A stretch of DNA of 62,833 nt, from positions 1 to 62,833 of the IMG/VR virus record IMGVR_UViG_3300010413_000029; one strand, given 5' to 3'. Below the pieces are notes generated by a model that saw only the letters and a list, made by a program, of their open reading frames with translations, was not told the DNA's origin and searched no databases. Each line of letters starts with the position of its first letter. Position 1 is the first letter of the stretch. Position numbers and translations under genes: made by a program. Source of the stretch: a virus. Below are positions 5,018 through 38,066 of the stretch, piece after piece.

Positions 5018-5090
5018 TGGGACTGGCAAACAACAATGTTATAATGATTTAGCCTTTTTCTTTGTGCCAGTCCCACAAAGAGAAGGGCTA
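5018..5090 (+). other. crossed-stem leader RNA before the HNH-AP2 gene
   Basis: Four abutting blocks. A: TGGGACTGGCA (5018-5028). D: TAGCCTTTTTCTTTG (5050-5064). A': TGCCAGTCCCA (5065-5075). D': CAAAGAGAAGGGCTA (5076-5090). A pairs with A' over 11 bp; D pairs with D' over 15 bp with two G-U pairs. The stems cross, so they form either a pseudoknot or alternative hairpins. D' is followed by TTTTGTTT, then the GGAG ribosome site and ATG. This is an attenuator-like layout. Confidence 0.65.
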
Positions 5091-5108
5091 TTTTGTTTGG
5101 AGAACATC

Positions 5109-5594
5109 ATGAAGAAAATTCCATTGACGCAAGGACAATTTGCACTGGTTGATGATGAAGATTATGAGTGGTTGATTGCTTGGAAGTGGTCAGCAAATAA
5201 AGTAAATAAAACCTTTTATGCATTCAGAAAAGAATGGAATCACGGCAATCAAAAAACAATTTATATGCATAGATTAATTATGAACGCTCCAGAAAACAAA
5301 TTAGTAGACCATAACGACATGAATGGCTTGAACAACCAAAGACACAATCTAAGGCTTGGAAATAAATCAAAAAACGGTGCTAATAGGGGAATAGATAAAG
5401 ATAATACAACAGGCTACAAAGGTGTTACTATTTGTACATCAAGTAAACGAAGAAAGAAATATATTGCGCAAATAGGGTATAAAGGAGAGCATATTCAATT
5501 AGGTTATTTTCTCACTGCCGAGGATGCTGCAAGAGCTTATGACAAAAAAGCTAAAGAGCTATTTGACGAATTCGCTTACACAAATTTCAAATAA
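5109..5594 (+). CDS. HNH homing endonuclease with AP2 DNA-binding domain
   Basis: A 161-residue protein starting at the ATG after TTTGGAGAACATC. Residues about 40-95 hold the HNH core (YMHRLIMNAP, VDHNDMNGLNNQRHNLR). Residues about 100-160 form an AP2-like domain (GYKGVTI...YIAQIGYKGEHIQLGYF..AEDAARAYDKKA). This is the standard architecture of phage HNH-AP2 homing endonucleases that nick DNA at a target gene. It sits with a methyltransferase fragment between two versions of the lysin 5' end, on the strand opposite to the lysin. Confidence 0.92.
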   Translation: MKKIPLTQGQFALVDDEDYEWLIAWKWSANKVNKTFYAFRKEWNHGNQKTIYMHRLIMNAPENKLVDHNDMNGLNNQRHNLRLGNKSKNGANRGIDKDNTTGYKGVTICTSSKRRKKYIAQIGYKGEHIQLGYFLTAEDAARAYDKKAKELFDEFAYTNFK

Positions 5595-5606
5595 AGGGAA
5601 TTAAAA

Positions 5607-6220
5607 ATGAACAAAAAAGGTGGTTTTTCACATGATCCGCATTATGAAGGCAAATCAAATGATTGGATAACACCTAAATATATTATTGATGCTTTCGATG
5701 AATATGCCTAGAATATGCCTATCAAAGATGGAATTATGGTTGCATGTTTGATCTTGACCCATGTGCATCTATGAGTCAACCATGGCCTTGTGCACGAAAG
5801 GCATACACAAAAGAGCAAGACGGTTTACTTCATTCTTGGTTTGGTAATGTCTGGTTAAATCCCGAATATGGCCCACATACTTCAAAATGGATTCGTAGAT
5901 TAGTAGAACACGGGAAAGGGATTGCTCTTATTTTTGCTCGCACAGATACAAAATTGTGGCAAGATGAAATATTTCCAACTGCTGATGGTTTTCTATGGAT
6001 TGCTGGACGTATAAAATTTTATCTTCCGGATGGAACATTACATAAAGGTGGAAACGCTGGTGCACCTTCTTGTCTAATTGCTTGGGGTAATAAAAATCGA
6101 GATGCACTTATTCAAATTTGTGATGATGGATCAATTCGAGGAGCTTTTACTGACCGTGCATTTTACACAGACTCATATGCCATTAATCCAAAACAAGACA
6201 GATTATTTACAATAGACTAA
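5607..6220 (+). pseudogene. phage N6-adenine DNA methyltransferase (Dam family), frame broken
   Basis: The first part, from ATG 5607 (ribosome site AAAGGGA), encodes DWITPKYIIDAFDEYA and then meets TAG at 5709. The second part (ATG 5744 onwards, a different frame) continues FDLDPCAS, QDGLLHSWFGNVWLNPEYG, KWIRRLVEHGKGIALIFARTDTKLW, WIAGRIKFY, as in phage Dam-type N6-adenine methyltransferases. An exact tandem duplication of 11 nt at 5700-5721 causes the break; removing one copy restores one frame (DEYAYQRWNYGCMFDLD). The catalytic motif reads NPEY rather than NPPY. It could be an inactivated gene, a phase-variable state or an assembly error. Confidence 0.8.
5700..5721 (+). repeat. 11-nt tandem duplication (GAATATGCCTA x2)
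   Basis: GAATATGCCTA occurs at 5700-5710 and again immediately at 5711-5721. The unit is not a multiple of three and introduces both a TAG and a frameshift in the methyltransferase gene. Confidence 0.95.
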
Positions 6221-6311
6221 TGTCTATCCCATACGCACGTGGGCTTCCAGAGATGACTCGCGCAACTAAGGCAGGGTCAATATCCAGAAAGCTTCTAAGT
6301 CTATGATACAT
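6207..6311 (-). pseudogene. stranded 5' end of the lysin gene
   Basis: An ORF of 34 codons reads MYHRLRSFLDIDPALVARVI, then SGSPRAYGIDIS, then LL and a stop. The RAYGIDIS block matches residues 34-41 of the GH25 lysin. It starts 13 bp after the 6325-6648 gene, on the lysin strand, and similarity ends where the methyltransferase gene begins. I infer that this was the original lysin start, cut off from the body by the HNH/methyltransferase cassette. The DNA of the two copies differs at many sites, so the event is not recent or involved a related phage. Confidence 0.65.
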
Positions 6312-6324
6312 ATAGGTGAGGGGA

Positions 6325-6648
6325 CTATGCTTTTTCAACACTATCTCCATTATCATCCACCTCAATAGTGTTGATCGAAGTCAAATCCTTGAGCAACTTA
6401 TCAATAGCAGTTTCAGGGATTTTCTTCAAGGGCTTGTTTCTATACCAGTGTTCAAAGTTATTCCAGATATTCTCAAACACAGGGATAGAAGCAGAGTAAT
6501 GACCCTCAGGGCAATCCACAGTCTTATACTTGGAAACAAACAACTGCTTTCTACACAATGGACAATGGCCTTGATAGCCACTATCATCATGGGTGCTTTC
6601 CATGACTTTCTCAATGCCTTCTACGATTTTCTGGACATCATCAGACAT
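6325..6648 (-). CDS. small zinc-binding-like protein
   Basis: A 107-residue protein with CPLC near residue 30 and a C..GH pair (VDCPEGHYS), a likely zinc site. The middle is rich in aromatic residues and the C-terminus is acidic (VDDNGDSVEKA). Its start overlaps the end of the upstream gene by 8 bp, so it is translationally coupled to it. It lies between the minor head gene and the lysin remnant. Function unknown. Confidence 0.65.
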   Translation of the reverse strand: MSDDVQKIVEGIEKVMESTHDDSGYQGHCPLCRKQLFVSKYKTVDCPEGHYSASIPVFENIWNNFEHWYRNKPLKKIPETAIDKLLKDLTSINTIEVDDNGDSVEKA

Positions 6649-6979
6649 CTCTCACCTCAGCAACAAACTCATGCACAGGGGAATCAGAGATCACATTACG
6701 ACTCCCAATCGAGCGCAGTTTATCCGTTGATACAATGCAAAGTACCTTGCGTCTACCATCATTCCTGCGTCCACGCACAGGGATGTACTCAATACAACGA
6801 GTGGCAGGGCTATAAATAAAAAGTAAATGCCCCTCATCATCAACAACTCGAATATCGTCAATACTAAGGTCTTTGACTTCTTGAAATTGTCCACAATTGA
6901 CACATGCACCTTTCTTAGACTTAGACTCTACAAAGACCTCACCACAAAACAAGCAAAGTTTTTCATCAGATAATTGCAT
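6641..6979 (-). CDS. zinc-ribbon protein of unknown function
   Basis: A 112-residue protein with two knuckles, CLFC (about 9-12) and CVNC (about 26-29), forming a probable zinc ribbon. A beta-rich domain follows with RRNDGRRKVLCIVST. The start has AGGAAATAGATT upstream. It lies 3 nt after the minor head protein gene and overlaps the next gene. It is conserved in position within the head module; role not known. Confidence 0.65.
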   Translation of the reverse strand: MQLSDEKLCLFCGEVFVESKSKKGACVNCGQFQEVKDLSIDDIRVVDDEGHLLFIYSPATRCIEYIPVRGRRNDGRRKVLCIVSTDKLRSIGSRNVISDSPVHEFVAEVRDV

Positions 6980-6982
6980 AAT

Positions 6983-7831
6983 CTATTTCCTGAATTTGAA
7001 AGCACACAAACAAAATGAAAAACAGGAAGCATCCCCGATTTCCACAGCATTATCAATTGAAACCCAACCCTGCGCAGCCAATTCAATGCAACCAGGGCGA
7101 TTGTGACTATCATGACAATGATTCTCAGTGGGACCTAACATCCTCTTGGCTTCATTCATGCCATTCTCTTGGGCAACCCGAAGCAACTGGTTCTGGTAGA
7201 TGACATTGCCAGCCCTGCCATACATGCCAGCCCGGATGACAGCACGCCCATTCAATGGTTGTTTGCCAGAATAAATCTCATCCAAGAAGTTGTTCAGCCA
7301 ACGATAGTGAGGACGCATCCTCCAGCCAAACTTGGCAATCTCACTTTGGGTATAGTTGGCCTTGCCACCAATCGAAGCGAGATAGGCAGCACGATACTCA
7401 TTCTTCATCATGGTGCGCATGGTGTCATACCACTGTTGCCGACCGATCTCCCCATTGACAAGCCTGACAGTCAACTCACGCATCTGTTGTTCGGAATACT
7501 TGGAGAGCCGCAAGACTCCCAATCTCACGCGCGAGGCAGGCACACGATAGTTGGAACCCACATACCGCCATACCCCATTGACTGTATCAAAGTAGGTCTC
7601 CACAGGCTTATAGGCCTGCTGCTGTACTTCTGTCCGTAGCTTAGCATCCAGAATCCCAGGCACACCACTGACCAGATTCCATAGGTCAATCGAAGCCTGT
7701 AGGTCACTGGTATCTTCCAAGTAGGCCTGTATCTCATCTTCAGTGAGAGGGCGCACAAAGTCAGTGCTATCTCGATATGGTCTAGCAGGCAGCAACTTGG
7801 GGAGAGGGGGAACAGGATAGGGCAGGGTCAA
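6983..7831 (-). CDS. phage minor head (Mu gpF/SPP1 gp7-like) protein
   Basis: A 282-residue protein directly after the portal. The middle is helical and basic. The C-terminal segment TENHCHDSHNRPGC..GWVSI....IGDASCFSFCLCAFKFR carries the cysteine/histidine pattern that ends the MuF-type minor head domain. Start: TTG at 7831 overlapping the portal TGA (TTGA), with AGAGGAAT upstream. It is likely a minor capsid component assembled with the portal. Confidence 0.75.
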   Translation of the reverse strand: MTLPYPVPPLPKLLPARPYRDSTDFVRPLTEDEIQAYLEDTSDLQASIDLWNLVSGVPGILDAKLRTEVQQQAYKPVETYFDTVNGVWRYVGSNYRVPASRVRLGVLRLSKYSEQQMRELTVRLVNGEIGRQQWYDTMRTMMKNEYRAAYLASIGGKANYTQSEIAKFGWRMRPHYRWLNNFLDEIYSGKQPLNGRAVIRAGMYGRAGNVIYQNQLLRVAQENGMNEAKRMLGPTENHCHDSHNRPGCIELAAQGWVSIDNAVEIGDASCFSFCLCAFKFRK

Positions 7832-9954
7832 GGTACTAATTCCTCTCCAATTCCTTCATACTCCTCACCAAGAGCAAAGGCAATCCACTGACCACCAATC
7901 ACCAAATGCACATCCGAGAAATTCATCTCAAGCAATTGGCCAACGTCCACCTGAGTCTTGTCATCCTTTGGCAAATATGCCAATGTCATATGCGGGATGA
8001 AGCCATGCTCACGGTGATAGGGGATTCCATGCTGGTCCAGCGCATCCGTCAAGGATTGCCGAAAGGCTGGAAACTCAGGACTATCGAACAAGGCCACAAT
8101 CGGATCAGTGTCATTTTCGGAAACAAACCTGGCAACACCCTGCAACTTGGTCTTGATCGGTTTGGCATTCTCCGTGAAGTCAGCCAACGCATAGTCCACT
8201 CTTTTCATGTCCAAAGTACGGTAGTCACCCAGGTATGCTAGCGTGATGTGCAGGTCATCCTTGACATCATCAGACATGATCGGGTATTCCTTCTGCAATT
8301 CATCACGCAAGACATCAGGGATACGCAACGCAATCATGGCAGAGTTCTCGTTAGCTTTATGAAGCAAGATAGGGCCATACTGCGTATTCATGGTAACAGT
8401 GTAAGCATCAACATCATTCAAGCTATGACCTGGGGACAAAGCCTTCTTGATTTTGGCAGTATTGATGTGACTGTTCGCAGAAATAAGATTACTGGGAACT
8501 TTCCCAATATCTATCTTCTTTCCAGAAGGGTCTAAAAATTCACTATTGCCATTGCCATTGGGTGGGGGAGGTGGGGGTTGACTTAGCTTTTCTTGTATGG
8601 CAAGTAACTGGTCTGCTGGGATTTCATAATCAAGATACCGTTTCGCAAACTCGTCAAAAGGCATGATCATTTCAGGGGCATTTCCAGAGGCAGTATTAAT
8701 TGCCTGAGCATACTTGACAGCCAAGTCAGCATTTTCCAAATCAGTCAATTCAAACAAGGACGGCCAATGCACATTGTACTTCTCAGGGACATTCAAAATC
8801 CCCAATTCTCCCATACGTTTGATGAAGGGTCTCAGAATGTACGGCTCTGCAAAGTTCTTGCGTCTCCAATCAATGTAGTCCATGAAGTTGGCATCATCCT
8901 GAGAGCTTGCCAGATTGCCACGTTCCGAGCCAAGCAGGATGCGCTGGGGGATACGTTCACTCCCTGCAATGTACGCAACGATGACATCAAATTGCTCACG
9001 GCTATCTACTGGCTTTCCACCCAACTCCTGAATGTCCAATCCTTGCGCACGCACTACCCGACGAAGGTTGTGCTCCCACTCATCCCACTCCTCCTGCATG
9101 GCCTTGTATTCATTGGAGTCAACCTTGGGCATCGTAAAGCCTTCCACCGCCTTGAGTACCACGCCCTGATAGATTAGTTTCCAGAATGCTTCACTTCCAC
9201 CACCAACCACTTTCTCCAAATCATATAAGCGATTCAAGACCTTCTTGAGTCTTGGCACGCCATAGATGCGACCCAATCCCATCTTGCCAATGCCAGCCCG
9301 TTCCCGCCCTTCTTTCACATGGATGACACGCGAATAGTGTACAGCCAAGTCAGCACTTTCATTCTCATCAATTGAAACATAATAGCGAGTCGGCAATCCA
9401 AAGCGCGGGTTTTGCTTATCTGAAACCAACGACAATTCATCCACCCTGGCATTGCCCTCATCATGGGTGGTCACATACAGGATGTTATTGGATTTTCCAG
9501 ACACTTTTGTTTCTGGTTCCCCAGGCAATCCCAAGTACATCAATGCAAAACGAGAGATTCCACAGGAGCGGTCTACCTCATTGAACTGTGCCCACAGGTC
9601 TAGCCTGTCCACCAAATCTTCAAAGTCCTTCTGCAATTGGGTTGGCTCATCCAATTCATCAGCAGACTTCTGTCCTTCATCCAGTAAAATTGGGTGCTTG
9701 CGCCAAGTCTCGTCACTGACTGTATCAACAACGCGCGTACCCAATCCATCGCGCTCATAGATGTTCAAGTAATCCTGGAACTGCGGGGTTTTTGTGTACC
9801 CAAGAACAGAGTACAAATCACGTTCTCCCCCAAAGGATTGGCCTAGTGCACTGGCAAGGCCGGAGCGAGAGACAAGCGCAGAGTTCAATTTGATCTGGTT
9901 TTCCAGATGGTCAATCAACTCTGATTTCAACATTTTAGAATACGGTTTTTCCAT
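7828..9954 (-). CDS. portal protein fused to a C-terminal 2H phosphoesterase (Acb1-like) domain
   Basis: A 708-residue protein. Residues about 1-480 are a DUF1073-type portal (SALGQSFGGERDLYSVLGY, YERDGLGTRVVDTVSDETWRK, FALMYLGLPG), the gate for DNA entry. A PPPPPPNGNGN linker follows. The C-terminal about 160 residues carry the two H-x-T motifs of 2H phosphoesterases: HIT at 569-571 and HMT at 655-657. Acb1 anti-CBASS proteins of phages are 2H enzymes that destroy cyclic nucleotide signals, and some are annotated on DUF1073 proteins. The start at 9954 is favoured by GGAAGGTGATC and the 2-nt gap after the terminase; an upstream ATG overlaps the terminase. Confidence 0.85.
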   Translation of the reverse strand: MEKPYSKMLKSELIDHLENQIKLNSALVSRSGLASALGQSFGGERDLYSVLGYTKTPQFQDYLNIYERDGLGTRVVDTVSDETWRKHPILLDEGQKSADELDEPTQLQKDFEDLVDRLDLWAQFNEVDRSCGISRFALMYLGLPGEPETKVSGKSNNILYVTTHDEGNARVDELSLVSDKQNPRFGLPTRYYVSIDENESADLAVHYSRVIHVKEGRERAGIGKMGLGRIYGVPRLKKVLNRLYDLEKVVGGGSEAFWKLIYQGVVLKAVEGFTMPKVDSNEYKAMQEEWDEWEHNLRRVVRAQGLDIQELGGKPVDSREQFDVIVAYIAGSERIPQRILLGSERGNLASSQDDANFMDYIDWRRKNFAEPYILRPFIKRMGELGILNVPEKYNVHWPSLFELTDLENADLAVKYAQAINTASGNAPEMIMPFDEFAKRYLDYEIPADQLLAIQEKLSQPPPPPPNGNGNSEFLDPSGKKIDIGKVPSNLISANSHINTAKIKKALSPGHSLNDVDAYTVTMNTQYGPILLHKANENSAMIALRIPDVLRDELQKEYPIMSDDVKDDLHITLAYLGDYRTLDMKRVDYALADFTENAKPIKTKLQGVARFVSENDTDPIVALFDSPEFPAFRQSLTDALDQHGIPYHREHGFIPHMTLAYLPKDDKTQVDVGQLLEMNFSDVHLVIGGQWIAFALGEEYEGIGEELVP

Positions 9955-9956
9955 GA

Positions 9957-11243
9957 TCACCTTCCAAACGTGCCTGCTGTATGGCTTCCACTCAATTCGG
10001 TGTATGCCCATACTTTAGCATCTAATCTATTGGGACTGGGGTCTCCAGGAACCCACATGCAAAGTTCATCTTCTAGTATTGGAAAAACGCCAACATGATG
10101 ATCACGCCCCTTTTCTGCAATAGCCGAAATAGGTTCTGCTCTAGTAGCTTTTCCACGGGAAGCCCATACAAGTTTCACTGGCACATTTCCAATAGTAGGA
10201 TCTTTTTGTCTAGCATTGATTATTGCTTGCTTTATGACTGATTGTACCATTTCTCCACCATTGTTTTTTTCAGCAACAATACAATCTGCCTTGTATCTAT
10301 GATAAGCGGTTATTGCAGCTTGTGCCCACTGTTCAGGACTTCCGTGCAAACTATCATCAGCCATTGTATAATAATCCTCATTTATTTTTCCTGCGGTGAT
10401 AATTCCTGCCTCATCACCACTGCTAGATGCAGTAGGGTCTACAGCAACAACAACCCGTGACAACTTTGGCGGAACTTTTACAACTCTGCAATCTTCTATT
10501 CCCCATAATATCTCATCGTTGACAAGAATGTTTCTACGCCTCCACAACGCACCCGGAGCTTCATCAATATCTTCTGCTTCGATTTCTTGTCTAATTGCCA
10601 AGGCCGTCATATCCATTGTAATATCGGACAAGGCAACCTTACTAATATAAGGATTATCGTGACTAGTAAAATGGAAGGCAGCCCATCTTCCGGTTTTGTC
10701 CTTTTTTGCCTTTTTCCACAGTTTTGCTGCATGTTGAGGGTCTCTTGCTTTGCTCACGCTGCGAGAATGTAGAGATGGGGGAGTATAAATAAATATGGCA
10801 TCTCCGTTATTATCTAATAACATCGGTGCACCAACTTCACTCCATGCTGTTTCGTCCATCAATTGAAATTCATCTAAAATAAGTACATCCGCATAATCAC
10901 CGCGCAAGGTATCAGCATTCCAGGCAGTCTTTGCTCGTATTCGCTGTTCTGTTCCACGTAATTCAATAATATGCCTAGTCTCGTTCTTGTAATATGCCCC
11001 CGCTTCTATTGGCTCATAAAGCGCTTTGAGTGTTTCCGTCCAAAATCTGTCAATCTGGTCTTGCGTAGGAGCAGCATAAAGCACCCTTCGGCCCTCTAAG
11101 AACTTTTCAAGACCTAAAATTGCCATTCCTACTGTCTTTCCCCCACGTCTGCCAGCACGAACAATTTTTCGTTTTGCTGAATGGTCAATAAATTGACGCT
11201 GTTTTTCATGGGGATTCGGAATCGTTACTGTTATGGTCTGCAT
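9957..11243 (-). CDS. terL: terminase large subunit
   Basis: A 428-residue packaging motor. Walker A is GRRGGKT (31-37) and Walker B LILDE (121-125), followed by a coupling segment. The nuclease domain begins VVVAVDPTA (D269), continues with VAEKNNGG, and ends with SPNRLDAKVWAYTEL. Length and order match phage TerL. The gene overlaps the small terminase gene by 38 bp and abuts the portal. Confidence 0.95.
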   Translation of the reverse strand: MQTITVTIPNPHEKQRQFIDHSAKRKIVRAGRRGGKTVGMAILGLEKFLEGRRVLYAAPTQDQIDRFWTETLKALYEPIEAGAYYKNETRHIIELRGTEQRIRAKTAWNADTLRGDYADVLILDEFQLMDETAWSEVGAPMLLDNNGDAIFIYTPPSLHSRSVSKARDPQHAAKLWKKAKKDKTGRWAAFHFTSHDNPYISKVALSDITMDMTALAIRQEIEAEDIDEAPGALWRRRNILVNDEILWGIEDCRVVKVPPKLSRVVVAVDPTASSSGDEAGIITAGKINEDYYTMADDSLHGSPEQWAQAAITAYHRYKADCIVAEKNNGGEMVQSVIKQAIINARQKDPTIGNVPVKLVWASRGKATRAEPISAIAEKGRDHHVGVFPILEDELCMWVPGDPSPNRLDAKVWAYTELSGSHTAGTFGR

Positions 11244-12908: not shown

Positions 12909-13478
12909 TCACTTATATTCACCTACTTTTTGCATGAGCCAAATCTCATCATAACCATAAGGCCATCTAGCCAACCTACCTTTTGTCTTTAAATAGAATT
13001 CTGTTTTGGCTGAACTAATATATCCAACTTCTAACGGAAAATGTCCCTCACAATTCAAAACAACCATTTCTCTGGTTTCCAAATTACGCATATCAAATTC
13101 TATTGAGGAATCTATATAAATATATCCATCTTCATCTTGATTTCCTCCCCAAAATTCTCCTGAAAACGGATAGCCTAATTTTTTTAGAATTTTATTGTTT
13201 TCCTTTATGTGATGATCTTTATTAGGCATATCTCCTATAAAAATTCTGGCAACAACTACCTCTGCATTGCACATCCATCCCCATACAGTTGAAAATGAAT
13301 AAGCATCATATAAATCAAATTTTCCAAGGCGTTCCCATTTTTGACAGATCACATCAACATCATGGAAATATCCTGAACGCATTTTTCTTACGTATTCTGA
13401 TAAAACTATCATCCAATCAGTATCTTCCATGAGATTATCAACTTGTTTTTTTATAGTATTCTCTAATATTGTTGGCAT
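12909..13478 (-). CDS. hypothetical protein preceded by an attenuator-like leader
   Basis: A 189-residue protein starting at the ATG after GAGGAGAGCAAAT. It contains many aromatic residues and an SGEFWGGNQDEDGYIYIDSS segment; there are no clear motifs and no membrane span. The leader in front has the same crossed-stem design as those preceding homing nuclease genes, so this gene may be mobile too, but I cannot identify a nuclease motif in it. Confidence 0.6.
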   Translation of the reverse strand: MPTILENTIKKQVDNLMEDTDWMIVLSEYVRKMRSGYFHDVDVICQKWERLGKFDLYDAYSFSTVWGWMCNAEVVVARIFIGDMPNKDHHIKENNKILKKLGYPFSGEFWGGNQDEDGYIYIDSSIEFDMRNLETREMVVLNCEGHFPLEVGYISSAKTEFYLKTKGRLARWPYGYDEIWLMQKVGEYK

Positions 13479-13490: not shown

Positions 13491-13634
13491 CAAAAATAAA
13501 CAGCCGCCTTCTACTTTTCGCTGACTGTTGTCACACAGGCCAAGGCTTTAGTAGAAAAGCGGCTATTTATAGCGAAACAAAAAGCCTTCCTGTGTGACAA
13601 GATTTATTTTATCACATGTAAGGCCATTAGACAA
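13491..13634 (-). other. promoter plus crossed-stem attenuator-like leader
   Basis: Promoter TTGTCT (13629-13634)-17-TAAAAT (13606-13611). Transcription would start almost exactly at the first block. In transcript order: B TTGTCACACAGGAAGGCTT (13600-13582), C TTTCGCT (13577-13571), A AGCCGCTTTTCTACT (13564-13550). Then B' (13548-13528), C' AGCGAAA (13522-13516), A' AGTAGAAGGCGGCT (13515-13502). Each primed block is the complement of its partner, in the same order, so all stems cross. A-A' is followed by GTTTATTTTTG like a terminator, then GAGGAG and ATG. The rest of 13635-13764 shows no gene. Confidence 0.65.
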
Positions 13635-22585: not shown

Positions 22586-22768
22586 TTCTTCAGTGTTACT
22601 TAGGCCAACACTATCAGGAATTTTGGTCTGTTCAAAAGTCCACTTCATTAAATCCATAACTGTGGTTTTACTTGGGAGATTCCCGGTACATCCAATAAAA
22701 TCTGCAACAAGTTCATCAAGCATAGCATGAAGCTCAATATGCCTTTGTTTATGTTCTTCGTCATTCAT
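22580..22768 (-). CDS. small hypothetical protein
   Basis: A 62-residue protein from the ATG at 22766-22768 (GGAGGAAGTT upstream). Helical and acidic (DEEHKQRHIELHAMLDELVADF). It overlaps the end of the 22761-24242 gene. No family recognised. Its stop codon lies in the operator dyad of the next promoter. Confidence 0.5.
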   Translation of the reverse strand: MNDEEHKQRHIELHAMLDELVADFIGCTGNLPSKTTVMDLMKWTFEQTKIPDSVGLSNTEEG

Positions 22769-24242
22769 AACTTCCTCCAAAAATCTTGCTATTCATACTG
22801 ATCCCATCCCCAACATCAGACATATGCCCAAACAACTTTTCGATGCGTTCCACCTGCACTCGCAACTCAGCATCATTCGGTCTACTATCCAACTCATCCT
22901 TGTACTGTTGCAGGTCAAACACATCCCACGGCCACAAGGGTTGACCGGGGTTGTCATGCCCCTCCAGAAACAGGATACCTCGAATATTCAACGCCCAACT
23001 AAAACCAAGCGGCGGGTCTGGAAGTTCCAATCCATCAGGGGGGTCAAATGACAATCCAGAAATTCCACTATTCTTGGGAGACTTCCCACCAAATGGGATC
23101 TGTGCAAAACTTGAGTTCTGGACAGGAGCAGATGCAACCTGCTTATCAAACATAATCAAGCCATTGTCTGCTGCATAACTAAGCATGGCCACAATCCCAT
23201 TATTGGCATTGCCAGAGTTCTGCATATCCTTGAACACAGGTGAGGGGTCTTTGGTCAATGGGGACTGGTCAACAGGAATGGGAGCAAATATCTCATTGGG
23301 AGCATTCCAACCAGCCACGCTATCAAGCACCCCAAAGCCAACACACAAGTCAGGGGATACTTTCAAATTCACACTAACATCCACCTTGTTTCGCGCCAAT
23401 GCCTGCTGATACAAGGGCTGTCTTCCTTTCTGGATACCAGGGGCTTTCAACCATTGCCCATTAGCAGGGAACGGAATCTGTGCCCCTTTGAAGCTCACTC
23501 GCGCAGCCTTCCAATCCCCAACAAGGTCATCAGTTGTGAACACAACAGGAAAGTTCACAGCAGAATGAGCATTTTTCTTGTGGATCAGGGTGCAATAGCG
23601 TAACCCATCCAGAGCAAAGGCAAACACAACCGGGGAGTTCGGATAGTTGTGCTTGAGCGAGGCATATACCGTGATTTCACCAGGGACCAACGAGCCTTTG
23701 TGGTCAGGGTGGTCCATCATGGTAACATCCTTCTTACAAAACACCCAGTCGCCCTTGAGAGCAAAAGCGCCCTTCTGGAATGGGTCAATGCCAGTCAATT
23801 CCTTGCCCCAAGCGGTGAACCATCCTCCATATTTAGCGATCTCGGAACCATGAGTCGGGTCAATCTCAACCAGGCCAGCCTGCTCCACACTGGGCGGGAC
23901 AAACTGGTTGTCATTGCTATAATCAAAAGTCAAAACAAGTTCTATATCGTGTGGCATTTGTTCTCCTACTTTATCAGACATTTGAAAAACGTCCTGAAAC
24001 AAGGGGTCGGATGAACCCCATCGACCTAAAACCAATCGCTCATAATCAGTGGCTTGCCTCATCAAAGAGTACTTGATAGCATCCAAACTATCAGGGTCAA
24101 AAATAGTAGGACTATCACAATAAGTACTGGCAAAAATTGGTTCATCTGGATTGAGAACCATCTTGCGAAATGACTCCATAAGCTCAGAGTCATTACAAAG
24201 TTTCTCGTACTCATCAGGGCTAAGGGATGGGGTCACTGGCAA
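22761..24242 (-). CDS. large hypothetical protein
   Basis: A 493-residue acidic protein with many short strands and W/P/G-rich loops (GGWFTAWGKELTGIDPFQKG, LPDPPLGFSWALNIRGILFLEG). A C-terminal helix (ELRVQVERIEKLFGHM) ends it. No catalytic motif is visible. It lies between the SSB gene and the MoxR-VWA operon. It might be a substrate or partner of those, but nothing in the sequence shows it. Confidence 0.55.
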   Translation of the reverse strand: MPVTPSLSPDEYEKLCNDSELMESFRKMVLNPDEPIFASTYCDSPTIFDPDSLDAIKYSLMRQATDYERLVLGRWGSSDPLFQDVFQMSDKVGEQMPHDIELVLTFDYSNDNQFVPPSVEQAGLVEIDPTHGSEIAKYGGWFTAWGKELTGIDPFQKGAFALKGDWVFCKKDVTMMDHPDHKGSLVPGEITVYASLKHNYPNSPVVFAFALDGLRYCTLIHKKNAHSAVNFPVVFTTDDLVGDWKAARVSFKGAQIPFPANGQWLKAPGIQKGRQPLYQQALARNKVDVSVNLKVSPDLCVGFGVLDSVAGWNAPNEIFAPIPVDQSPLTKDPSPVFKDMQNSGNANNGIVAMLSYAADNGLIMFDKQVASAPVQNSSFAQIPFGGKSPKNSGISGLSFDPPDGLELPDPPLGFSWALNIRGILFLEGHDNPGQPLWPWDVFDLQQYKDELDSRPNDAELRVQVERIEKLFGHMSDVGDGISMNSKIFGGSYE

Positions 24243-29564: not shown

Positions 29565-30479
29565 CTAGGTAGTTATATTGCCAAAATCAAAGGGGGCAAA
29601 GCCAGTCTCAGGGTCGATCTCAACAGGGACATTATTGGGATTGTTCGCAGGAAAGGCTTCAGGATAGGCCTCGATCATTTTGTTCGGGTTCCAGAACTTC
29701 ATCGAGAAATTGTCATCCTCAAACAGGTAGCGCATGAACACATGCAAGTGTCTTCCCTTCGTCTGTTCCTGCTCATCCACAAAACGATAAAAGCTCTCCC
29801 ACTTATTGAAGCTCACCCGAGTATCCAAAATAGCACAAAACAACTCATGGATTTCCTCAAGCCTAGTAGACTTCTTTACCCCGGGTTGCATTCGCAAAGC
29901 ATTCATCCACCCTTCAATGGGATCTCCACGCTTGTCTTCACTTTCTACAATGCGTTGTCTATCTTGTTCTAAAGTTTTTGAAAAATCGTCCTGCTCTACT
30001 TTTTCTTTATTCTTTTCTTTATTCTTTGCTTCATGTGGTGAGTAACCTCCTTCACCTGATGATGTACCTCCTTCATGTGGTGAAGGCTTCATGTCATGAA
30101 GGGTCTTTTTGAACTCTATTCTAGACTTGATAGATAGATGACTTTCAGCCCATTCAATATTCTTACCCCATAAATCAGGAATAGATAAATGCCAAACAGG
30201 TTGGGGATATCCAGGGTCTTTTCTAACTTCCCCTTCAAGAAAGCCAAGTGAAATCCAATAGTTACGACAATCCACTACTTTTCCAATGGACATGCCACTC
30301 AAAGCAGCTAAATCTTCCGTTGATAAAAAGCATTCACTAGAATCACCTGCTACCTCTTTTATCGTATCCCATAAAGAGTAATCATAAGGTGTCCTACTAT
30401 AATATTTCACAATGCGAGGGTTGATCGTGAAATATTTTGCATCACGACTTTTATCTCTTATTTTGTTTTGATCACTCAT
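29565..30479 (-). CDS. replication initiator/helicase-loader-like protein
   Basis: A 304-residue protein immediately before the helicase gene. The N-terminal about 100 residues look like a winged helix (LSTEDLAALSGMSIGKVVDCR, YWISLGFLEG). A charged linker with SPHEGG repeats follows, then a helical C-terminal domain. The linker is encoded by 21-bp direct repeats (30029-30091) next to a pyrimidine-rich AT tract, an arrangement like lambda O, where origin iterons lie inside the initiator gene. Confidence 0.65.
   Translation of the reverse strand: MSDQNKIRDKSRDAKYFTINPRIVKYYSRTPYDYSLWDTIKEVAGDSSECFLSTEDLAALSGMSIGKVVDCRNYWISLGFLEGEVRKDPGYPQPVWHLSIPDLWGKNIEWAESHLSIKSRIEFKKTLHDMKPSPHEGGTSSGEGGYSPHEAKNKEKNKEKVEQDDFSKTLEQDRQRIVESEDKRGDPIEGWMNALRMQPGVKKSTRLEEIHELFCAILDTRVSFNKWESFYRFVDEQEQTKGRHLHVFMRYLFEDDNFSMKFWNPNKMIEAYPEAFPANNPNNVPVEIDPETGFAPFDFGNITT
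30001..30091. repeat. iterons and AT-rich tract, candidate replication origin
   Basis: Units of 21 bp start at 30029, 30050 and 30071 (CTTCATGTGGTGAGTAACCTC and variants). Units 1 and 3 share their first 13 bases; unit 2 keeps CTTCA...GATGA and ACCTC. Next to them, 30001-30028 repeats TTTTCTTTATTC twice. Iterons beside an easily melted tract, inside a gene next to a replicative helicase, suggest an origin. Confidence 0.6.
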
Positions 30480-30841
30480 GATGCACCTTTTTTAGAATTG
30501 CATTTCTTACATAATGTTTGAAGATTGGATAATTCTAAAGTCCCACCTTTTACCTCTGGATAAATATGATCTACAGTCAAGTTTTTTCTTTTTCCACAAT
30601 GTCGACAAGTGAAATTATCTCGCTCCCATACTTCCCACCTAATTTTTGCAGGTATAATTTCTTTCTTGTAAGATGATTTTTCTTTTGGCCTATTTTGTTC
30701 ATCTTGATATTCTTGATATGCTTCCTGTAAATCTTTTTTCAATATTTCAACAAAATTGGGCCTAGCATCAATATCCTCAAGGCAGAAAATTGCATCACCA
30801 AGTCGTCTAACCCTATTATGTAGAGTTTCTAATAATTCCAT
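30476..30841 (-). CDS. HNH endonuclease
   Basis: A 121-residue protein with a helical N-terminus and a compact HNH domain: IRWEVWERDNFTCRHCGKRK, LTVDHIYPEVKGG, ELSNLQTLCKKCNSKKG (about residues 68-119), all zinc and catalytic positions present. The start follows TTAGGAGTTTGTT. It overlaps the initiator gene by 4 bp and has a long structured leader. It is likely a free-standing homing or mobile nuclease inserted in the replication operon. Confidence 0.9.
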   Translation of the reverse strand: MELLETLHNRVRRLGDAIFCLEDIDARPNFVEILKKDLQEAYQEYQDEQNRPKEKSSYKKEIIPAKIRWEVWERDNFTCRHCGKRKNLTVDHIYPEVKGGTLELSNLQTLCKKCNSKKGAS

Positions 30842-30858: not shown

Positions 30859-31055
30859 GATACAAAAATCCCTTTCAAACTTTGATAACGGCTCAGGCAA
30901 CACAGGCTTTGATTACATCGGTGGCTTCCGATAGAACCTAAGCCGTTATCAAAATCCAAAAAGGATTGATATTTTGCCCGTGTTTTGCGCTTTTGTTTAG
31001 CGGTAGCCAGCCGCGCGCCTAAACATATTCTAAAGGATGTTCACGATTCTGTCAA
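30859..31055 (-). other. promoter and crossed-stem leader before the HNH gene
   Basis: Promoter TTGACA (31050-31055)-17-TAGAAT (31027-31032), then a GTTTAG..CTAAAC hairpin. In transcript order: G AACACGGGC (30984-30976), E AATCCTTTT (30967-30959), F TTTGATAACGGCTTAG (30953-30938). Then a small ATCGG/CCGAT hairpin, G' GCCTGTGTT (30907-30899), F' (30896-30881), E' AAAGGGATT (30875-30867). F and E nest; G crosses both, giving a pseudoknot. E' runs into ATTTTTG, then the ribosome site and ATG. Confidence 0.65.
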
Positions 31056-34371: not shown

Positions 34372-34661
34372 TAGTTCACATGGCTTCCAGGCTCCCCGGA
34401 CTTCTGAACCGTGTGCCAGATCGCGATCTGCGCCTTTCGTTTGGATGGGAATTCAGTGTACGTCCCAAAGGACACAATCTCAAGGTTTTTCTCAACTTTG
34501 TTGTAAAACATCAAAGTTTTATCAGGCAAGTGTCGCACCACACACTTCTTCGGTGGCTCAGGGGGCGTGTACTTTCTTTGCTTCTTCTGTGGCCTGGACT
34601 TGCGACCTGGCTTACCACGATAGTGCCGATTGTTATTCGAATAATGTTGATTCTGGTTCAT
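34353..34661 (-). CDS. small basic protein
   Basis: A 102-residue protein. The first 40 residues are strongly basic and disordered (RGKPGRKSRPQKKQRKY), typical of nucleic-acid contact. A small folded part (IVSFGTYTEFPSKRKAQIAIW) follows. It overlaps the upstream gene by 4 bp. No family recognised. Confidence 0.5.
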   Translation of the reverse strand: MNQNQHYSNNNRHYRGKPGRKSRPQKKQRKYTPPEPPKKCVVRHLPDKTLMFYNKVEKNLEIVSFGTYTEFPSKRKAQIAIWHTVQKSGEPGSHVNYCIEEL

Positions 34662-34984
34662 GATACCTCTCTATTAGCAAGATTCAATTTGTTCAATTTT
34701 TCTCCAAAATCAATAAATTGTTCTGGATCACAAATATGGATATGACGCGGATTTCCATCACCAAAAGGGAACATCCCATCATGCCAAACAAAAATATCAA
34801 TACACCCACCAAATCTTGATTGTGCATCATGAGACTCCTCCCATCTTTTATCCATAACAGCAACGGCTTTTCCTGAATAGCCACCCATCTGTGGATACCA
34901 AATGGCATATCCAATCTTGTCATCAGATTCAAGCACTTTATCATTTGAGTCACACTGTTCAGAAGTTGGTTCTTGAATAGTCAA
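34658..34984 (-). CDS. hypothetical protein with TTG start
   Basis: A 108-residue protein. I chose the TTG at 34982-34984 because AAAGGAGAATAAA precedes it and the promoter -10 at 35019-35024 excludes the longer frame. It contains IGYAIWYPQMGGYSGKAVAVMDKRW and a histidine-rich HDGMFPFGDGNPRHIHI. First gene after the 35.0-kb cassette. Function unknown. Confidence 0.55.
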   Translation of the reverse strand: MTIQEPTSEQCDSNDKVLESDDKIGYAIWYPQMGGYSGKAVAVMDKRWEESHDAQSRFGGCIDIFVWHDGMFPFGDGNPRHIHICDPEQFIDFGEKLNKLNLANREVS

Positions 34985-34999
34985 TTTATTCTCCTTTAC

Positions 35000-35072
35000 T
35001 GGATGATTGTACACAAGTATATTAGTATAAACTCCCTTAGATGTCAAGACATTGGCAGGATAATTTTTATCC
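35000..35072 (-). promoter_or_regulatory. repeated promoter cassette, copy 5
   Basis: TTGACA (35042-35047), 17 nt with AAGGG, TAATAT (35019-35024). Dyad GGATAATTTTTATCC (35058-35072) lies exactly 10 bp upstream of the -35 box. AATCATCCA (35000-35008) and AAAGGAGAA follow. Just upstream is the CCCGCGCTATAGTTGCGGG hairpin shared with the 16.8-kb cassette. Confidence 0.78.
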
Positions 35073-35239
35073 CGCAACTATAGCGCGGGAACTTACCTTT
35101 TGTTAAATGCGATGCACCCGGGAGCAGACCGGGTGCATCATGCAGGGGAGGGTGTGGAGCAGGGAACTTGGCCGAGATTGGTTGTGTAATGCCACCTAGC
35201 ATTGCAAAGACAGTTTCAGTGGCAAATCAAGTATATCAT

Positions 35240-35318
35240 AAAAAAACCCTATGCTTTGGATGGGCATAGGGTGGGGGACAAGATAGCGGGCTAGGACTAG
35301 TGTATCTCTAATGCTATC
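35240..35318 (-). ncRNA. candidate small RNA 2 with terminator
   Basis: TATAAT (35325-35330, TGGTATAAT) would start a transcript near 35318. AGATAGC/GCTATCT can form a stem in the 5' half. The 3' end is CCCTATGC...GCATAGGG (stem arms 35271-35264 and 35254-35247) followed by seven Ts, a strong rho-independent terminator. No plausible reading frame. Between 35072 and 35240 I see only one further GC-rich hairpin (GATGCACCCGG...CCGGGTGCATC). Confidence 0.5.
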
Positions 35319-35332
35319 TAACTCATTATACC

Positions 35333-35451
35333 AAAAAAATGGCCTACTGGCTAGGAGAACGACCGTAACACTCGGAGAGTGCAAATAGGGTCATTTTTGT
35401 TCCAGTAGGCCCAAGTGAAACCTGTTTTCACAGTATGTCTCACTTGCATCC
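35333..35451 (-). ncRNA. candidate small RNA 1 with terminator
   Basis: Driven by TTGACT (35481-35486)-17-TACAAT (35458-35463). The 5' hairpin has AAGTGA/TCACTT arms and an inner CTGT-GAAA-ACAG with a GNRA-type loop. The 3' part is a long stem: GGCCTACTGG (35411-35402) with CCAGTAGGCC (35350-35341), an inner ATGACC/GGTCGT helix and a CACTC/GAGTG cap, followed by seven Ts. The region encodes no convincing protein. The function is unknown. Confidence 0.55.
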
Positions 35452-35457
35452 ATTTGC

Positions 35458-35486
35458 ATTGTAAAGGGGCAATCCTAAAAAGTCAA
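35458..35486 (-). promoter_or_regulatory. promoter of the small RNA region
   Basis: TTGACT (35481-35486) and TACAAT (35458-35463) with a 17-nt spacer. The -35 box overlaps the stop of the winged-helix gene (35483). It lacks the dyad and leader motif of the cassette family. Confidence 0.6.
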
Positions 35487-35734
35487 GCCTTCTCAAAATA
35501 GGCATCAATGGCATTGGCAATTTCGGTTGGCACTATTGCCCTACTCTCACCAAATTCCTTTTCAAGAAGCAAACCATCCTCAGTCAACCGATCAATAAAA
35601 TAACTGACAACACTGGTGCTAGTATTGAAATGATCAGAAATATCACGGATGACAGGGCTGCGCTTTTTCTGTTTCCAGAATAGCAAGATGTATTTTAAAT
35701 AGTCATACTTACGATCAGATTGTTTGGGTGGCAT
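35483..35734 (-). CDS. winged-helix DNA-binding regulator
   Basis: An 83-residue protein: basic N-terminus (PPKQSDRKYDYLKYI), then SPVIRDISDHFNTSTSVVSYFIDRLTEDGLLLEKE, the helix-turn-helix and wing of a small LexA/MarR-like winged helix. It lies at the head of the early region, and is a good candidate for the protein that binds the repeated promoter dyads, though nothing in the sequence proves that. Confidence 0.75.
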   Translation of the reverse strand: MPPKQSDRKYDYLKYILLFWKQKKRSPVIRDISDHFNTSTSVVSYFIDRLTEDGLLLEKEFGESRAIVPTEIANAIDAYFEKA

Positions 35735-35758
35735 AGCACATCCATTCTAACATAAAAT

Positions 35759-35974
35759 CTATGGATTCTTGACCCCTTCCCCCACAGCGGGGTGCTGCAC
35801 CCATCCAGTAGTAGGCGATTCGGGAGCAGGCTTTTCATAGATCGTGCCACTATCCCAAACCTTATTGACTCCATTTTCAGACCAACGAGTCTGGGCATTC
35901 TCATACCCTTCAATCGGGTGTGGATTGGGAACATCAGTTTCTACTGGGGTGTAACCATTGGGTGTTGGTGACAT
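35759..35974 (-). CDS. small proline-rich protein
   Basis: A 71-residue protein from the ATG after AAGGAGGCCAAA, a near-perfect ribosome site. It is rich in P, N, G and W (PTPNGYTPVETDVPNPHPIE, YEKPAPESPTTGWVQHP) and probably unstructured. It is transcribed away from the plus-strand block. Function unknown. Confidence 0.65.
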   Translation of the reverse strand: MSPTPNGYTPVETDVPNPHPIEGYENAQTRWSENGVNKVWDSGTIYEKPAPESPTTGWVQHPAVGEGVKNP

Positions 35975-35990
35975 TTTGGCCTCCTTAGCC

Positions 35991-36018
35991 TTGACATATA
36001 TGCCGAACTGCATATAAT
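35991..36018 (+). promoter_or_regulatory. promoter of the plus-strand block
   Basis: TTGACA (35991-35996), 16 nt, TATAAT (36013-36018), about 40 bp before the ATG of the first plus-strand gene. The opposite strand of this interval is also AT-rich and may hold a divergent promoter for the 35759-35974 gene. Confidence 0.6.
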
Positions 36019-36059
36019 GTTTATAAGTATTATAAAGATTGTAAGGTAAAGGAGCGCAC

Positions 36060-36251
36060 ATGTCAAGTGAAACTGTATCAAAAACATACCACATTCCCCC
36101 AAAATATGCAGAGGCTCTAGAAGCACTACGCAAGGCAGGTTACAGCGATGACGGTAGCCTGACAAAAGTCAGTGCATTCAAGCAAGCCATCAAGGATGCT
36201 TGGGCCAAACACTTCCCAAATAAACCATTCCCAGGAGATGAGCAATCATGA
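36060..36251 (+). CDS. small helical, regulator-like protein
   Basis: A 63-residue protein after AAAGGAGCGCAC. HIPPKYAEALEALRKAGYSDDG followed by VSAFKQAIKDAWAKHF resembles the strand-helix-helix of ribbon-helix-helix regulators. First gene of the plus-strand block. The next ATG overlaps its stop (ATGA). Confidence 0.6.
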   Translation: MSSETVSKTYHIPPKYAEALEALRKAGYSDDGSLTKVSAFKQAIKDAWAKHFPNKPFPGDEQS

Positions 36252-36412
36252 GCAATGAACGCACAGTGACCTACGGTGACGAGGCAGTTGTAGTGGAAAC
36301 TGATAAGACCACTCAAATCATCACATGGGAAGACGACAAACCAGATGAGGATGTCACAACGATTGACAAAGCCACCGGTGAATCAACTACCACCCACTAC
36401 CCAAAGACTTAG
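36248..36412 (+). CDS. small acidic protein (54 aa)
   Basis: A 54-residue ORF MSNERTVTYGDEAVVVETDK, then ITWEDDKPDEDVTTID and THYPKT. The start overlaps the previous stop as ATGA. Short beta-like repeats, strongly acidic. The stop is followed by AGGAGAATACC, the ribosome site of the next gene. Function unknown. Confidence 0.6.
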   Translation: MSNERTVTYGDEAVVVETDKTTQIITWEDDKPDEDVTTIDKATGESTTTHYPKT

Positions 36413-36421
36413 GAGAATACC

Positions 36422-37348
36422 ATGAACGAATTTATGTTTGATAACACAAAGCTCGACAGTCTCGATAAGGACATTGCAGAACACATGGCCCGCCCTACCC
36501 TGGTCAGCAAATTGAAGGGGCAAAAGAAACGCAAAAAAGCAGCAGAAATGTCATGGACAGCAGAATTACAGGAATACTGGTACGTTTATGTATTCCTCGC
36601 AGTCAGTGCCATCTTCACCGGGATGCTCGGATTCATCCTCGGTACTGCTCCAGAAGCACAATCAAATGGTATCTATTTCAACACGGATGGACTCCATATC
36701 ATCACAGCAATCGTGTACATGCTTACCTTCATCACAATCACAGAGGGAGCCTTCGCCCTGGCAAAACGCCGCTTTTTTGTGCGCGAGGAAAAAAACGAAG
36801 TCCAAAAGTTGACAATGCTCGTTGCAATGGTAGTTGCAGGGATTTCCATTGTCGGCACAGGGATTGCAGGTGGATCTGTAACTGCTTCAGTCCTCGGCTT
36901 CCTGACTGAATTTCAAGAAATCCCTGCAAGCGCCCAAAAGTGGATTGTGTACATCATTCCTGTCCTTTTAGCTTTCTACACGTTTCTTTTCGCAGCCTAT
37001 CACCTCTCCAGCGATGCAGCCGCCAGTGAACGCATCACTCGCGAACAGATCAGGGAGCGTGACCTGGATCACCGTACTCGTCAGCGTACCATCGAGCAAA
37101 TCGCACAAGAGAGATTGCAAGAGACAGAGTTGCAACTATTCATGAAAATGGTCGAGGAAGGGCGTATTTCATCAGCTACCGCAACAGCCGCTATTCGCGC
37201 CGGGAAAACTCTCGGTCAACTCGAACGAGAACAAAAACGTGACATCGACGGAGACGGCAAAATCGGCCAAACTTCCCCAAACGGACATCGCCCAACAGTT
37301 CGGGTCCTGGGCGCAGACGAACAGGATTTTACGAACCCGCCACAGTAG
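36422..37348 (+). CDS. four-span membrane protein with charged C-terminal tail
   Basis: A 308-residue protein. Hydrophobic spans are at about 54-73, 92-112, 130-152 and 173-193. After them comes a long charged helix (ERITREQIRERDLDHRTRQR and on). An EF-hand-like DIDGDGKIG lies near residue 276. The N-terminal 40 residues are basic. It may be a phage protein acting at the host membrane. No family recognised. The minus-1 frame stays open past its stop into the next ORF. Confidence 0.65.
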   Translation: MNEFMFDNTKLDSLDKDIAEHMARPTLVSKLKGQKKRKKAAEMSWTAELQEYWYVYVFLAVSAIFTGMLGFILGTAPEAQSNGIYFNTDGLHIITAIVYMLTFITITEGAFALAKRRFFVREEKNEVQKLTMLVAMVVAGISIVGTGIAGGSVTASVLGFLTEFQEIPASAQKWIVYIIPVLLAFYTFLFAAYHLSSDAAASERITREQIRERDLDHRTRQRTIEQIAQERLQETELQLFMKMVEEGRISSATATAAIRAGKTLGQLEREQKRDIDGDGKIGQTSPNGHRPTVRVLGADEQDFTNPPQ

Positions 37349-37365
37349 AGCAACATGCTGAGGCG

Positions 37366-37833
37366 GTGATTGATGACAAAGCAGATGAGCTGCCATTAGA
37401 AATACCATTAGATTCGGCTCCTGAGGCATTAGATTTTCAAGATATTGATTCTATGGTTCAGGAAGCCGAACAAGTTCTAAAATCTAATGGCAGTGAAATA
37501 AATCTAACGGCTGTTTACAATATTGAGTTTACCGAAGGAAGGACTAGGAAAGATGGAAACTGGATCAAAACAGGAAAGTTCTACTGGATTTACACCACCT
37601 TCAAAGAAGGTAAAAGAGTACGAATCAGCCCAACAAAAATCCACGGGAACAAAAAATTTCTCACCAGAATTGAGAACTGTCCCCACAAAGGACGGGTCGC
37701 ATCTTTCTACCGCAACCGCACAGCCATTAGAAATGAGCAAGGAAATTCTAATGGCTATCGAGATATTCTTAGGGGACTTCAAAACATTGAAGGAACTATC
37801 TTCGACAAGTCGGCTGGCAATAAACAACGGTAA
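37366..37833 (+). CDS. hypothetical protein with GTG start
   Basis: A 155-residue frame, acidic at the N-terminus (DDKADELPLEIPLDSAPEAL). Its core NWIKTGKFYWIYTTFKEGKRVRIS looks like genuine protein. The start is uncertain: GTG 37366 has no good ribosome site and the frame is open further upstream (to 37243) inside the preceding gene, so an earlier start or a frameshift from that gene is possible. Its DNA carries many copies of the 8-mer CCATTAGA/TCTAATGG. Confidence 0.5.
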   Translation: MIDDKADELPLEIPLDSAPEALDFQDIDSMVQEAEQVLKSNGSEINLTAVYNIEFTEGRTRKDGNWIKTGKFYWIYTTFKEGKRVRISPTKIHGNKKFLTRIENCPHKGRVASFYRNRTAIRNEQGNSNGYRDILRGLQNIEGTIFDKSAGNKQR

Positions 37834-37937
37834 ACTCTATTGTGTCATAGATTTTCCTGGCCACAATCTAACGGCTGACGGTGAAAATCTAATGGTTGAT
37901 GGTCAGTCATTAGAAAAGCTATTAGAAAATCTAATGG
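37393..37937. repeat. cluster of 12 copies of the 8-mer CCATTAGA / TCTAATGG
   Basis: Exact copies are at 37393, 37405, 37483, 37724, 37747, 37888 and 37930. Copies with one change are at 37426, 37503, 37867, 37907 and 37919 (start positions). Both orientations occur. They fall in different reading frames, so a shared protein motif does not explain them. They could be binding sites of a replication, partition or regulatory protein. Confidence 0.75.
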
Positions 37938-37945
37938 AAAGATGA
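37553..37945 (+). CDS. hypothetical ORF overlapping the previous gene
   Basis: A 130-codon frame (ATG 37553; a later ATG at 37733 would give 70 residues). The later part MSKEILMAIEIFLGDFKTLK, INNGKLYCVIDFPG is the more convincing, so a short gene 37733-37945 is quite possible. The first 280 bp overlap the 37366-37833 frame. The last 100 bases are dense in the 8-mer repeat. Confidence 0.35.
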   Translation: METGSKQESSTGFTPPSKKVKEYESAQQKSTGTKNFSPELRTVPTKDGSHLSTATAQPLEMSKEILMAIEIFLGDFKTLKELSSTSRLAINNGKLYCVIDFPGHNLTADGENLMVDGQSLEKLLENLMER

Positions 37946-38066
37946 TATAATCAGATTGTTCAGGTCGTGCGGTAGAAAAGCCGATTTTGTTTTATAATCA
38001 AGAATACTCCGCTTGCCCCGTATGACCTGAACAATCAGACGGCTTTGGCTTGCGGAGTTTTTATTT
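37946..38066 (+). other. crossed-stem leader before the GIY-YIG gene
   Basis: TATAAT at 37946-37951 would start the transcript at the leader. A GATTGTTCAGGTCGTGCGG (37954-37972); D AAAGCCG (37977-37983); C ACTCCGCTTGCC (38006-38017); A' CCGTATGACCTGAACAATC (38018-38036); D' CGGCTTT (38040-38046); C' GGCTTGCGGAGT (38047-38058). A-A' pairs over 19 bp with two G-U pairs. All three stems cross. C-C' is followed by TTTTTATTT like a terminator, then TTTGGAGC and ATG. Confidence 0.68.

Follow-up and report, generated by a model that had tools for sequence, protein, structure and literature searches.

The virus record IMGVR_UViG_3300010413_000029 of IMG/VR (62,833 bases, 45% G+C), analysed at its full length and called the window here, carries four compact leaders, L1 to L4. 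They precede an AP2-HNH gene with weak Pfam scores (L1), an orphan open reading frame (L2), an HNH_5 gene (L3) and a MUG113/T5orf172 gene of the GIY-YIG superfamily (L4), in agreement with the gene types assigned by an earlier, sequence-only reading. In all four, as that reading described, a T-rich tract comes after the last paired block, with a Shine-Dalgarno sequence and an ATG behind it, and no sequence identity was seen among the leaders. That the leaders have a crossed-helix structure is near certain. For each, the best-scoring combination of two helices crossing in the order A D A' D' (by stacking energy, G-U pairs permitted) was compared with 300 dinucleotide shuffles, strongly overlapping helices being left out by design. 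The z values lie between -9 and -15: the best crossed pair reaches -53.6 kcal in L1 (z -11.9), -48.9 kcal in L2 (z -8.9), -65.0 kcal in L3 (z -14.9) and -51.1 kcal in L4 (z -10.3), and shuffled sequences never equalled it (0/300 for each leader). Two weaker cases named by the same reading fared worse, 1243-1295 being marginal (z -2.9, 2/300 shuffles) and 1592-1675 at chance level (z -0.3, 103/300 shuffles). Rfam 15 gave no match in the window or the leaders, HEARO/omega RNA and HDV-like families included, and megablast of the window's first 25 kb against 50,697 phage records found no relatives.

L1 consists of the following parts (strand in brackets; the terminator is a predicted one):

5000..5005 (+), extended -10 (ATGGTATAAT), read from the sequence; predicted RNA start at about 5012
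5013..5033 (+), 5' hairpin TTGTTTG[GGACTGG]CAAACAA with loop 5020-5026, from the fold
5050..5066 (+), 5' arm (D) of the terminator hairpin, from crossed-helix scoring and a terminator scan
5067..5073 (+), terminator loop CCAGTCC, which kisses loop 5020-5026 with full complementarity
5074..5099 (+), terminator 3' arm (5074-5090) and T-rich tract (17 pairs, 7-nucleotide (nt) loop, T tail)
5109..5594 (+), AP2-HNH homing-type endonuclease gene, 161 amino acids (HNH_3 E value 0.0016, AP2 E value 0.017, both below cutoffs)

Since GGACTGG and CCAGTCC are complementary over all 7 nt (7/7), the 5' hairpin and the terminator hairpin (5050-5090) form a kissing-loop pair. The crossed pairing claimed for L1 is real and is most naturally read as kissing loops rather than two linear crossing stems. 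The long crossing helices overlap at their ends by about 2 nt, and D:D' was named a terminator by an independent terminator scan. The HNH protein shows about 45% identity to members of its family. A second promoter-like site, extended and of the form TTGGGA-17-TATAAT, lies inside the leader at 5017-5045 (+); RNA made from it would start at arm D without the 5' hairpin.

L2 and L4 are built from linear blocks:

13606..13611 (-), L2 extended -10 (TGTGATAAAAT), from a promoter scan
13581..13600 (-), L2 5' strand of the first helix, A (13600-13589) and B (13588-13581), from crossed-helix scoring
13571..13577 (-), L2 E block TTTCGCT, partner 13522-13516 (17/5000 shuffles)
13550..13564 (-), L2 D, 5' arm of the predicted terminator stem, AGCCGCTTTTCTACT, from crossed-helix scoring
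13528..13549 (-), L2 B' (13549-13542) and A' (13539-13528), from crossed-helix scoring
13502..13522 (-), L2 E' (13522-13516) abutting D' (13515-13502), from pairing; then the T-rich tract and Shine-Dalgarno sequence
12909..13478 (-), L2 downstream gene, 189 amino acids, an orphan with no relative in the libraries searched
37943..37951 (+), L4 extended -10 TGATATAAT, from a promoter scan
37954..37972 (+), L4 A block, 19 pairs with 38018-38036, from crossed-helix scoring
37977..37983 (+), L4 E block AAAGCCG, partner 38040-38046 (32/5000 shuffles)
38006..38012 (+), L4 D block ACTCCGC, partner 38052-38058, from crossed-helix scoring
38018..38036 (+), L4 A', from crossed-helix scoring
38040..38063 (+), L4 E' (38040-38046), D' (38052-38058) and T-rich tract, from pairing
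38078..38617 (+), L4 MUG113/T5orf172 (GIY-YIG superfamily) nuclease gene, 179 amino acids, from Pfam

In each of these two leaders three helices cross one another: a long first one (A), E:E' with 7 Watson-Crick pairs, and the last, D:D'. Shuffles matched E:E' in 17/5000 cases for L2 and in 32/5000 for L4. The 189-amino-acid gene after L2 has no relative in viral contigs, PDB, PHROGs, PADLOC or phages, and its single-sequence structure model is unusable (predicted local distance difference test, pLDDT, 33). No relatives of the L4 gene were found in viral contigs.

L3 differs from its first description:

31027..31055 (-), promoter TTGACA-17-TAGAAT, from a promoter scan (11/12)
30994..31025 (-), candidate 5' hairpin TGTTTAG...CTAAACA with loop TGGCT, found by eye and weak
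30976..30984 (-), A block AACACGGGC (30984-30976), from crossed-helix scoring
30936..30967 (-), D, 5' arm of a 32-pair helix including G-U pairs, from crossed-helix scoring
30917..30932 (-), P3 hairpin ATCGG[AAGCCA]CCGAT, from the fold
30899..30907 (-), A' block GCCTGTGTT (30907-30899), abutting D', from crossed-helix scoring
30867..30898 (-), D', from crossed-helix scoring, then a TTTGT tract and the Shine-Dalgarno sequence TTAGGAG
30476..30841 (-), HNH_5/HNH endonuclease gene, 121 amino acids, from Pfam

The leader begins farther upstream than had been drawn, and its 9-pair A:A' crosses the 32-pair D:D' (30967-30936 with 30898-30867). Its best promoter sits 41 nt upstream of A. A -10 directly before the first block was found in L1, L2 and L4 (extended, TGnTATAAT or TGnTAAAAT) and not in L3. 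The loop TGGCT can pair with AGCCA of the P3 loop, a weak match (61/5000 shuffles). Relatives of the L3 HNH gene (L346-L353) have no crossed leader.

The design recurs in other phages. A search with the L1 HNH protein led to 72 viral loci, whose upstream regions were scored: 14/45 leaders of these relatives have z < -4, compared with 3/523 control stretches of the same loci, and they follow the same design in unrelated letters. A second search with an alignment as query gave 8/74 against 3/468 controls, in a set that partly overlaps the first. Among homologues having non-coding DNA upstream, 13/35 carry a crossed leader, and an unbiased scan of loci revealed further ones before a second HNH family and more AP2-HNH genes. 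Three leaders (L007 at 470-564, L263 and L302) stand behind Bacteroidota-like promoters (TAnnTTTG-like), which suggests, as far as promoter letters tell, that the design crosses host phyla.

The common layout comprises a promoter, a 5' block (frequently located at the predicted RNA start), a terminator arm, back-pairing blocks, a second terminator arm, a T-run, a Shine-Dalgarno sequence and a start codon. The GC-containing stem with an immediate T-run that marks intrinsic terminators occurs in 30/31 catalogued leaders; such a T-run (at least 5 T in 8 nt right after D') is present at only 7/143 control gene starts. In L1 to L4 the Shine-Dalgarno sequence lies outside the stems, after D' and the T-run. 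Of the 24 leaders whose promoter score is fair, 12 have a predicted -10 that ends 5-9 nt upstream of A, so that their RNA is predicted to begin at A. Nested folding of the growing RNA in 17 leaders showed that A:A' is the best fold of the RNA through A' in nearly all of them and that D:D', once D' has been made, dominates in most, with similar energies. Within one 31-kb contig (L342), three leaders have differing A blocks, which argues for pairing in cis; pairing of the window's leaders with other window genes in trans was limited to scattered single 13-nt matches.

Compensatory evolution is seen in two subfamilies. M1 consists of six contigs with the order A, D, P3 hairpin, A', D', in which 1 nt separates A' from D'; both helices could, from this geometry, stack end to end and coexist. 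All 24 pairs of its three helices are kept in 6/6 sequences, with 7 pairs changed on both sides; no shuffle equals this retention (0/500), and the signal is lost when partners are slid. Block A reads TGTTAC, TGCTAC, TGGAAC, TGGTAC or TGAGAC, each time with its exact complement in A'.

The other subfamily, K, was recognised by letters common to three leaders, those of the AP2-HNH homologues L020 and L062 and that of a further locus; a pattern search extended it to 97 viral contigs with 75 distinct sequences, including two founding loci. Its P1 hairpin carries the loop TTGGCGG, complementary to CCGCCAA inside the terminator loop; the strand before D pairs with the P3 loop, and a P4 hairpin and a D:D' helix of 15-17/17 pairs with T-run complete the structure. 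Counted by distinct combinations, pairing holds in 48/48 for P1 (mean of shuffles 12.1), in 11/11 for P3 (mean of shuffles 1.9) and in 30/34 for the crossing PK2 (mean of shuffles 9.7, maximum 18), while D:D' averages 16.2 pairs against 13.2 when shuffled. The kissing letters were fixed in the search pattern, so their invariance is no evidence; a single copy, picked up only by the model, carries a compensated kissing pair, TTGGCGG/CCGCCAA having become TTGGCCG/CGGCCAA. Conserved unpaired letters are CTG before P3 and AGA before D', some of this conservation being imposed by the search pattern. Compensatory changes in homologous leaders, the absence of which would have counted against the sequence-only reading, are thus present in both crossing helices of M1 (6 sequences) and K (67 distinct sequences). 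Neither subfamily has a match in Rfam. The K covariance model finds no match in the window, so what its leaders have in common with K is design, not sequence.

Of 56 genes scanned after K, 13 matched HNH_3, 11 NUMOD4, 6 DUF1376, 2 AP2 and 2 HNH; others were antirepressor, ParB-type and small orphan genes. Since K also precedes DUF1376 replication and ParB-like genes, the class favours homing-type nucleases and is not exclusive to them. The idea of a new class governing selfish nuclease genes accordingly keeps the clustering before such nucleases and the lack of an Rfam match, and loses its restriction to them. In a CxxC-HNH family (query from L049, 55 loci), only the query's own locus had the crossed leader, and one other locus carried an unrelated, K-type one. 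K occurs in 3/299 sampled genomes of the Paraburkholderia family, two of them already found. A cultured Paraburkholderia strain has a K-type leader ahead of a genomic AP2-HNH gene, and Paraburkholderia phenoliruptrix LMG 22037 carries a K leader; 22/24 genome contigs with the K pattern were rejected as chance. Outside K itself, the K-phage contigs hold only 3 candidates with crossed helices and a T-run in about 0.9 Mb, indicating that the design is rare in phage DNA. One K-bearing contig matches the Rfam family Betaproteobacteria-1 RNA at L149:6892-7009 (-) (RF02932, 103 bits).

Altogether, these findings lead to a model, to which we give a probability of roughly 0.55, in which the leaders would be cis-acting, pseudoknotted transcription attenuators, each RNA having its own 5' end tied topologically to its terminator hairpin. 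The leader would form the first 75-125 nt of a short mRNA made from its own sigma70-like promoter, and the last helix D:D' with the T-run would be an intrinsic terminator just upstream of the Shine-Dalgarno sequence. The RNA 5' end, a linear block A in some leaders and a 5'-hairpin loop in others, would pair with A' enclosed by the terminator, so that both become topologically linked. A:A' could form first; D' would emerge later and have to pair with D within an already folded structure, and the outcome of folding would be either a terminated leader RNA or read-through into the gene, the nuclease gene thereby being held at a low, conditional level. With a terminator placed before the gene, the regulated step would most simply be transcription read-through. 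The T-run presumably terminates transcription, A:A' would alter termination, and a signal, if any, would free or occupy A. We hold more tentatively, as possible rather than probable, a wider view: that of a widespread, topology-defined class of phage RNA in which the mRNA 5' end is knotted through its own terminator loop. Through its folding, such a knot would gate the transcription of selfish nuclease genes and of some early genes, and phages differing in promoter type would have retained it or invented it anew.

Several points weigh against the attenuator model. Start sites, termination and read-through are all predicted, and A:A' may either help or hinder D:D'. The blocks mostly have no bases in common, so a classical either/or antiterminator is not evident; the lack of overlap is itself no independent evidence, because the search demanded nearly non-overlapping helices. 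The terminator stems of L2 and L4 have long loops, and the scan finds no simple terminator there. No close relatives of the L1 to L4 leaders themselves were found, and covariation therefore holds for the class (M1, K) only. HNH genes of sampled isolated phages lie mostly inside operons and have no such leader. Finally, in three leaders of one phage (L055, L056 and L061 of IMGVR_UViG_3300035698_016830), A' can pair over 7-10 nt with the Shine-Dalgarno region as well as with A, so some members may act as translational switches. In L012 and L041 it is D' that is repeated in a similar way close to the start codon.

The complementarity around the Shine-Dalgarno sequence in L055, L056 and L061 also speaks for the knot gating ribosome access or shielding the mRNA from 5'-end-dependent decay, with the T-rich tract as a ribosome standby site. 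A often starts at the predicted start site and would bury the 5' end, and leaders of T4-like homing endonuclease genes work by sequestering the ribosome binding site (PMC2988022). However, runs of 6-8 T right after GC-rich stems are classic terminators, and the Shine-Dalgarno sequence is outside the helices in L1 to L4 and most other leaders, and we regard this explanation as unlikely. The terminated, knotted RNA might instead be the product, binding and restraining the nuclease made by read-through while a leaky terminator sets the RNA-to-protein ratio. The enrichment before nucleases would suit such a role, as would the anatomy of promoter, structured RNA, Rho-independent terminator, ribosome binding site and nuclease gene, which is that of type III toxin-antitoxin and AbiF loci (PMC12373285, PMC4627078). 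The leaders lack tandem repeats, however, and specific RNA-protein pairs do not fit a K RNA that stands before unrelated proteins (NUMOD4-HNH, DUF1376, ParB-like) or a single nuclease family, AP2-HNH, whose leaders are unrelated in sequence; a leader RNA acting as product is accordingly judged improbable.

A riboswitch-like sensor, with termination set by a metabolite, or by a protein of host or phage, bound to the knot, would account for the compact, aptamer-like form of K and its conserved unpaired CTG and AGA. Yet K conservation is partly imposed by the search pattern, and M1, the window leaders and other leaders have no letters in common outside pairs, which makes a sensor very unlikely. 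To an RNA guide of a nuclease, or a self-cleaving RNA, we assign almost no likelihood: structured RNA beside HNH genes does resemble HEARO/omega RNA of IscB, and the M1 order P1-P2-P3-P1'-P2' resembles HDV-like folds, but Rfam, those families included, gives no match, the proteins are small HNH/AP2 or GIY-YIG-like ones with no RuvC domain match, pairing occupies the 5' end and a variable unpaired guide was not seen. The self-acting RNA suggested by the sequence-only reading is likewise without support, and none was found for HDV-like or HEARO readings.

Other observations in the window concern 24286-24212 (-), where crossed helices (z -7.3) without a T-run lie at the start of gene 22761-24242, and 35417-35341 (-), where crossed helices (z -4.8) include a 10-pair stem followed by ATTTTTTT, with no long open reading frame directly after. 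In the portal protein encoded at 7828-10011 (-), the C-terminal part (about 552-717) gives matches to several PHROGs that bear the name RNA ligase, as well as to one profile for a head maturation protease, and may be an additional fused domain.

To our knowledge, no gene-control class has been described in which conserved pseudoknots take in both an intrinsic terminator and the 5' end of the RNA, and leaders of this kind were not found described in the literature covered, which mostly excluded subscription journals. Because crossing pairs are kept while letters change freely, sequence-based RNA discovery misses them. The leaders are simple subjects for studying how knots fold during transcription and give a way into the question of what stops freestanding homing endonucleases from damaging the phage that carries them, and the K-type leader in cultured Paraburkholderia makes the design testable outside metagenomes.

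Several known systems resemble these leaders in part. Type III toxin-antitoxin and AbiF loci likewise place a structured RNA and a Rho-independent terminator before a nuclease-type gene (PMC12373285, PMC4627078), and in AbiF-RCd22 and its counterparts the order of promoter, structured and often pseudoknotted RNA, intrinsic terminator, ribosome binding site and gene expressed by read-through is the same. The leaders here have no direct repeats (none in L1, L2 and L4, one chance 10-nt pair in L3), their sequence does not track the protein, the same leader occurs before non-nucleases, and the protein families are others: Pfam and PADLOC matches are HNH, AP2, T5orf172/MUG113 and HEase, with no ToxN, CptN, TenpN or AbiF-type toxin. 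In T4-like phages, homing endonuclease genes that are freestanding or lie in introns (I-TevI, SegB, MobE) also have their expression limited by a structured RNA ahead of them, but through nested hairpins that hide the ribosome binding site on long transcripts (PMC2988022), whereas here helices cross, a T-run follows and the binding site lies outside. HEARO/omega RNA of IscB shares the position upstream of an HNH-containing nuclease, without the Rfam match, IscB-type protein or guide segment being present here. The two hairpins of L1 with fully complementary 7-nt loops recall ColE1 RNA I-RNA II, and kissing loops recur in K between the P1 loop and CCGCCAA; in L1, however, both hairpins belong to one RNA, one of them is the predicted terminator, and no antisense RNA was seen to take part. 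Transcription attenuators and riboswitch expression platforms share the 5' leader that ends in an intrinsic terminator before the first gene, yet the leaders described here have no class-wide aptamer, and their helices cross, mostly without common bases, instead of excluding one another. A pairing pattern that evolution has preserved while the letters vary freely suggests a type of phage gene switch that has not been described before.

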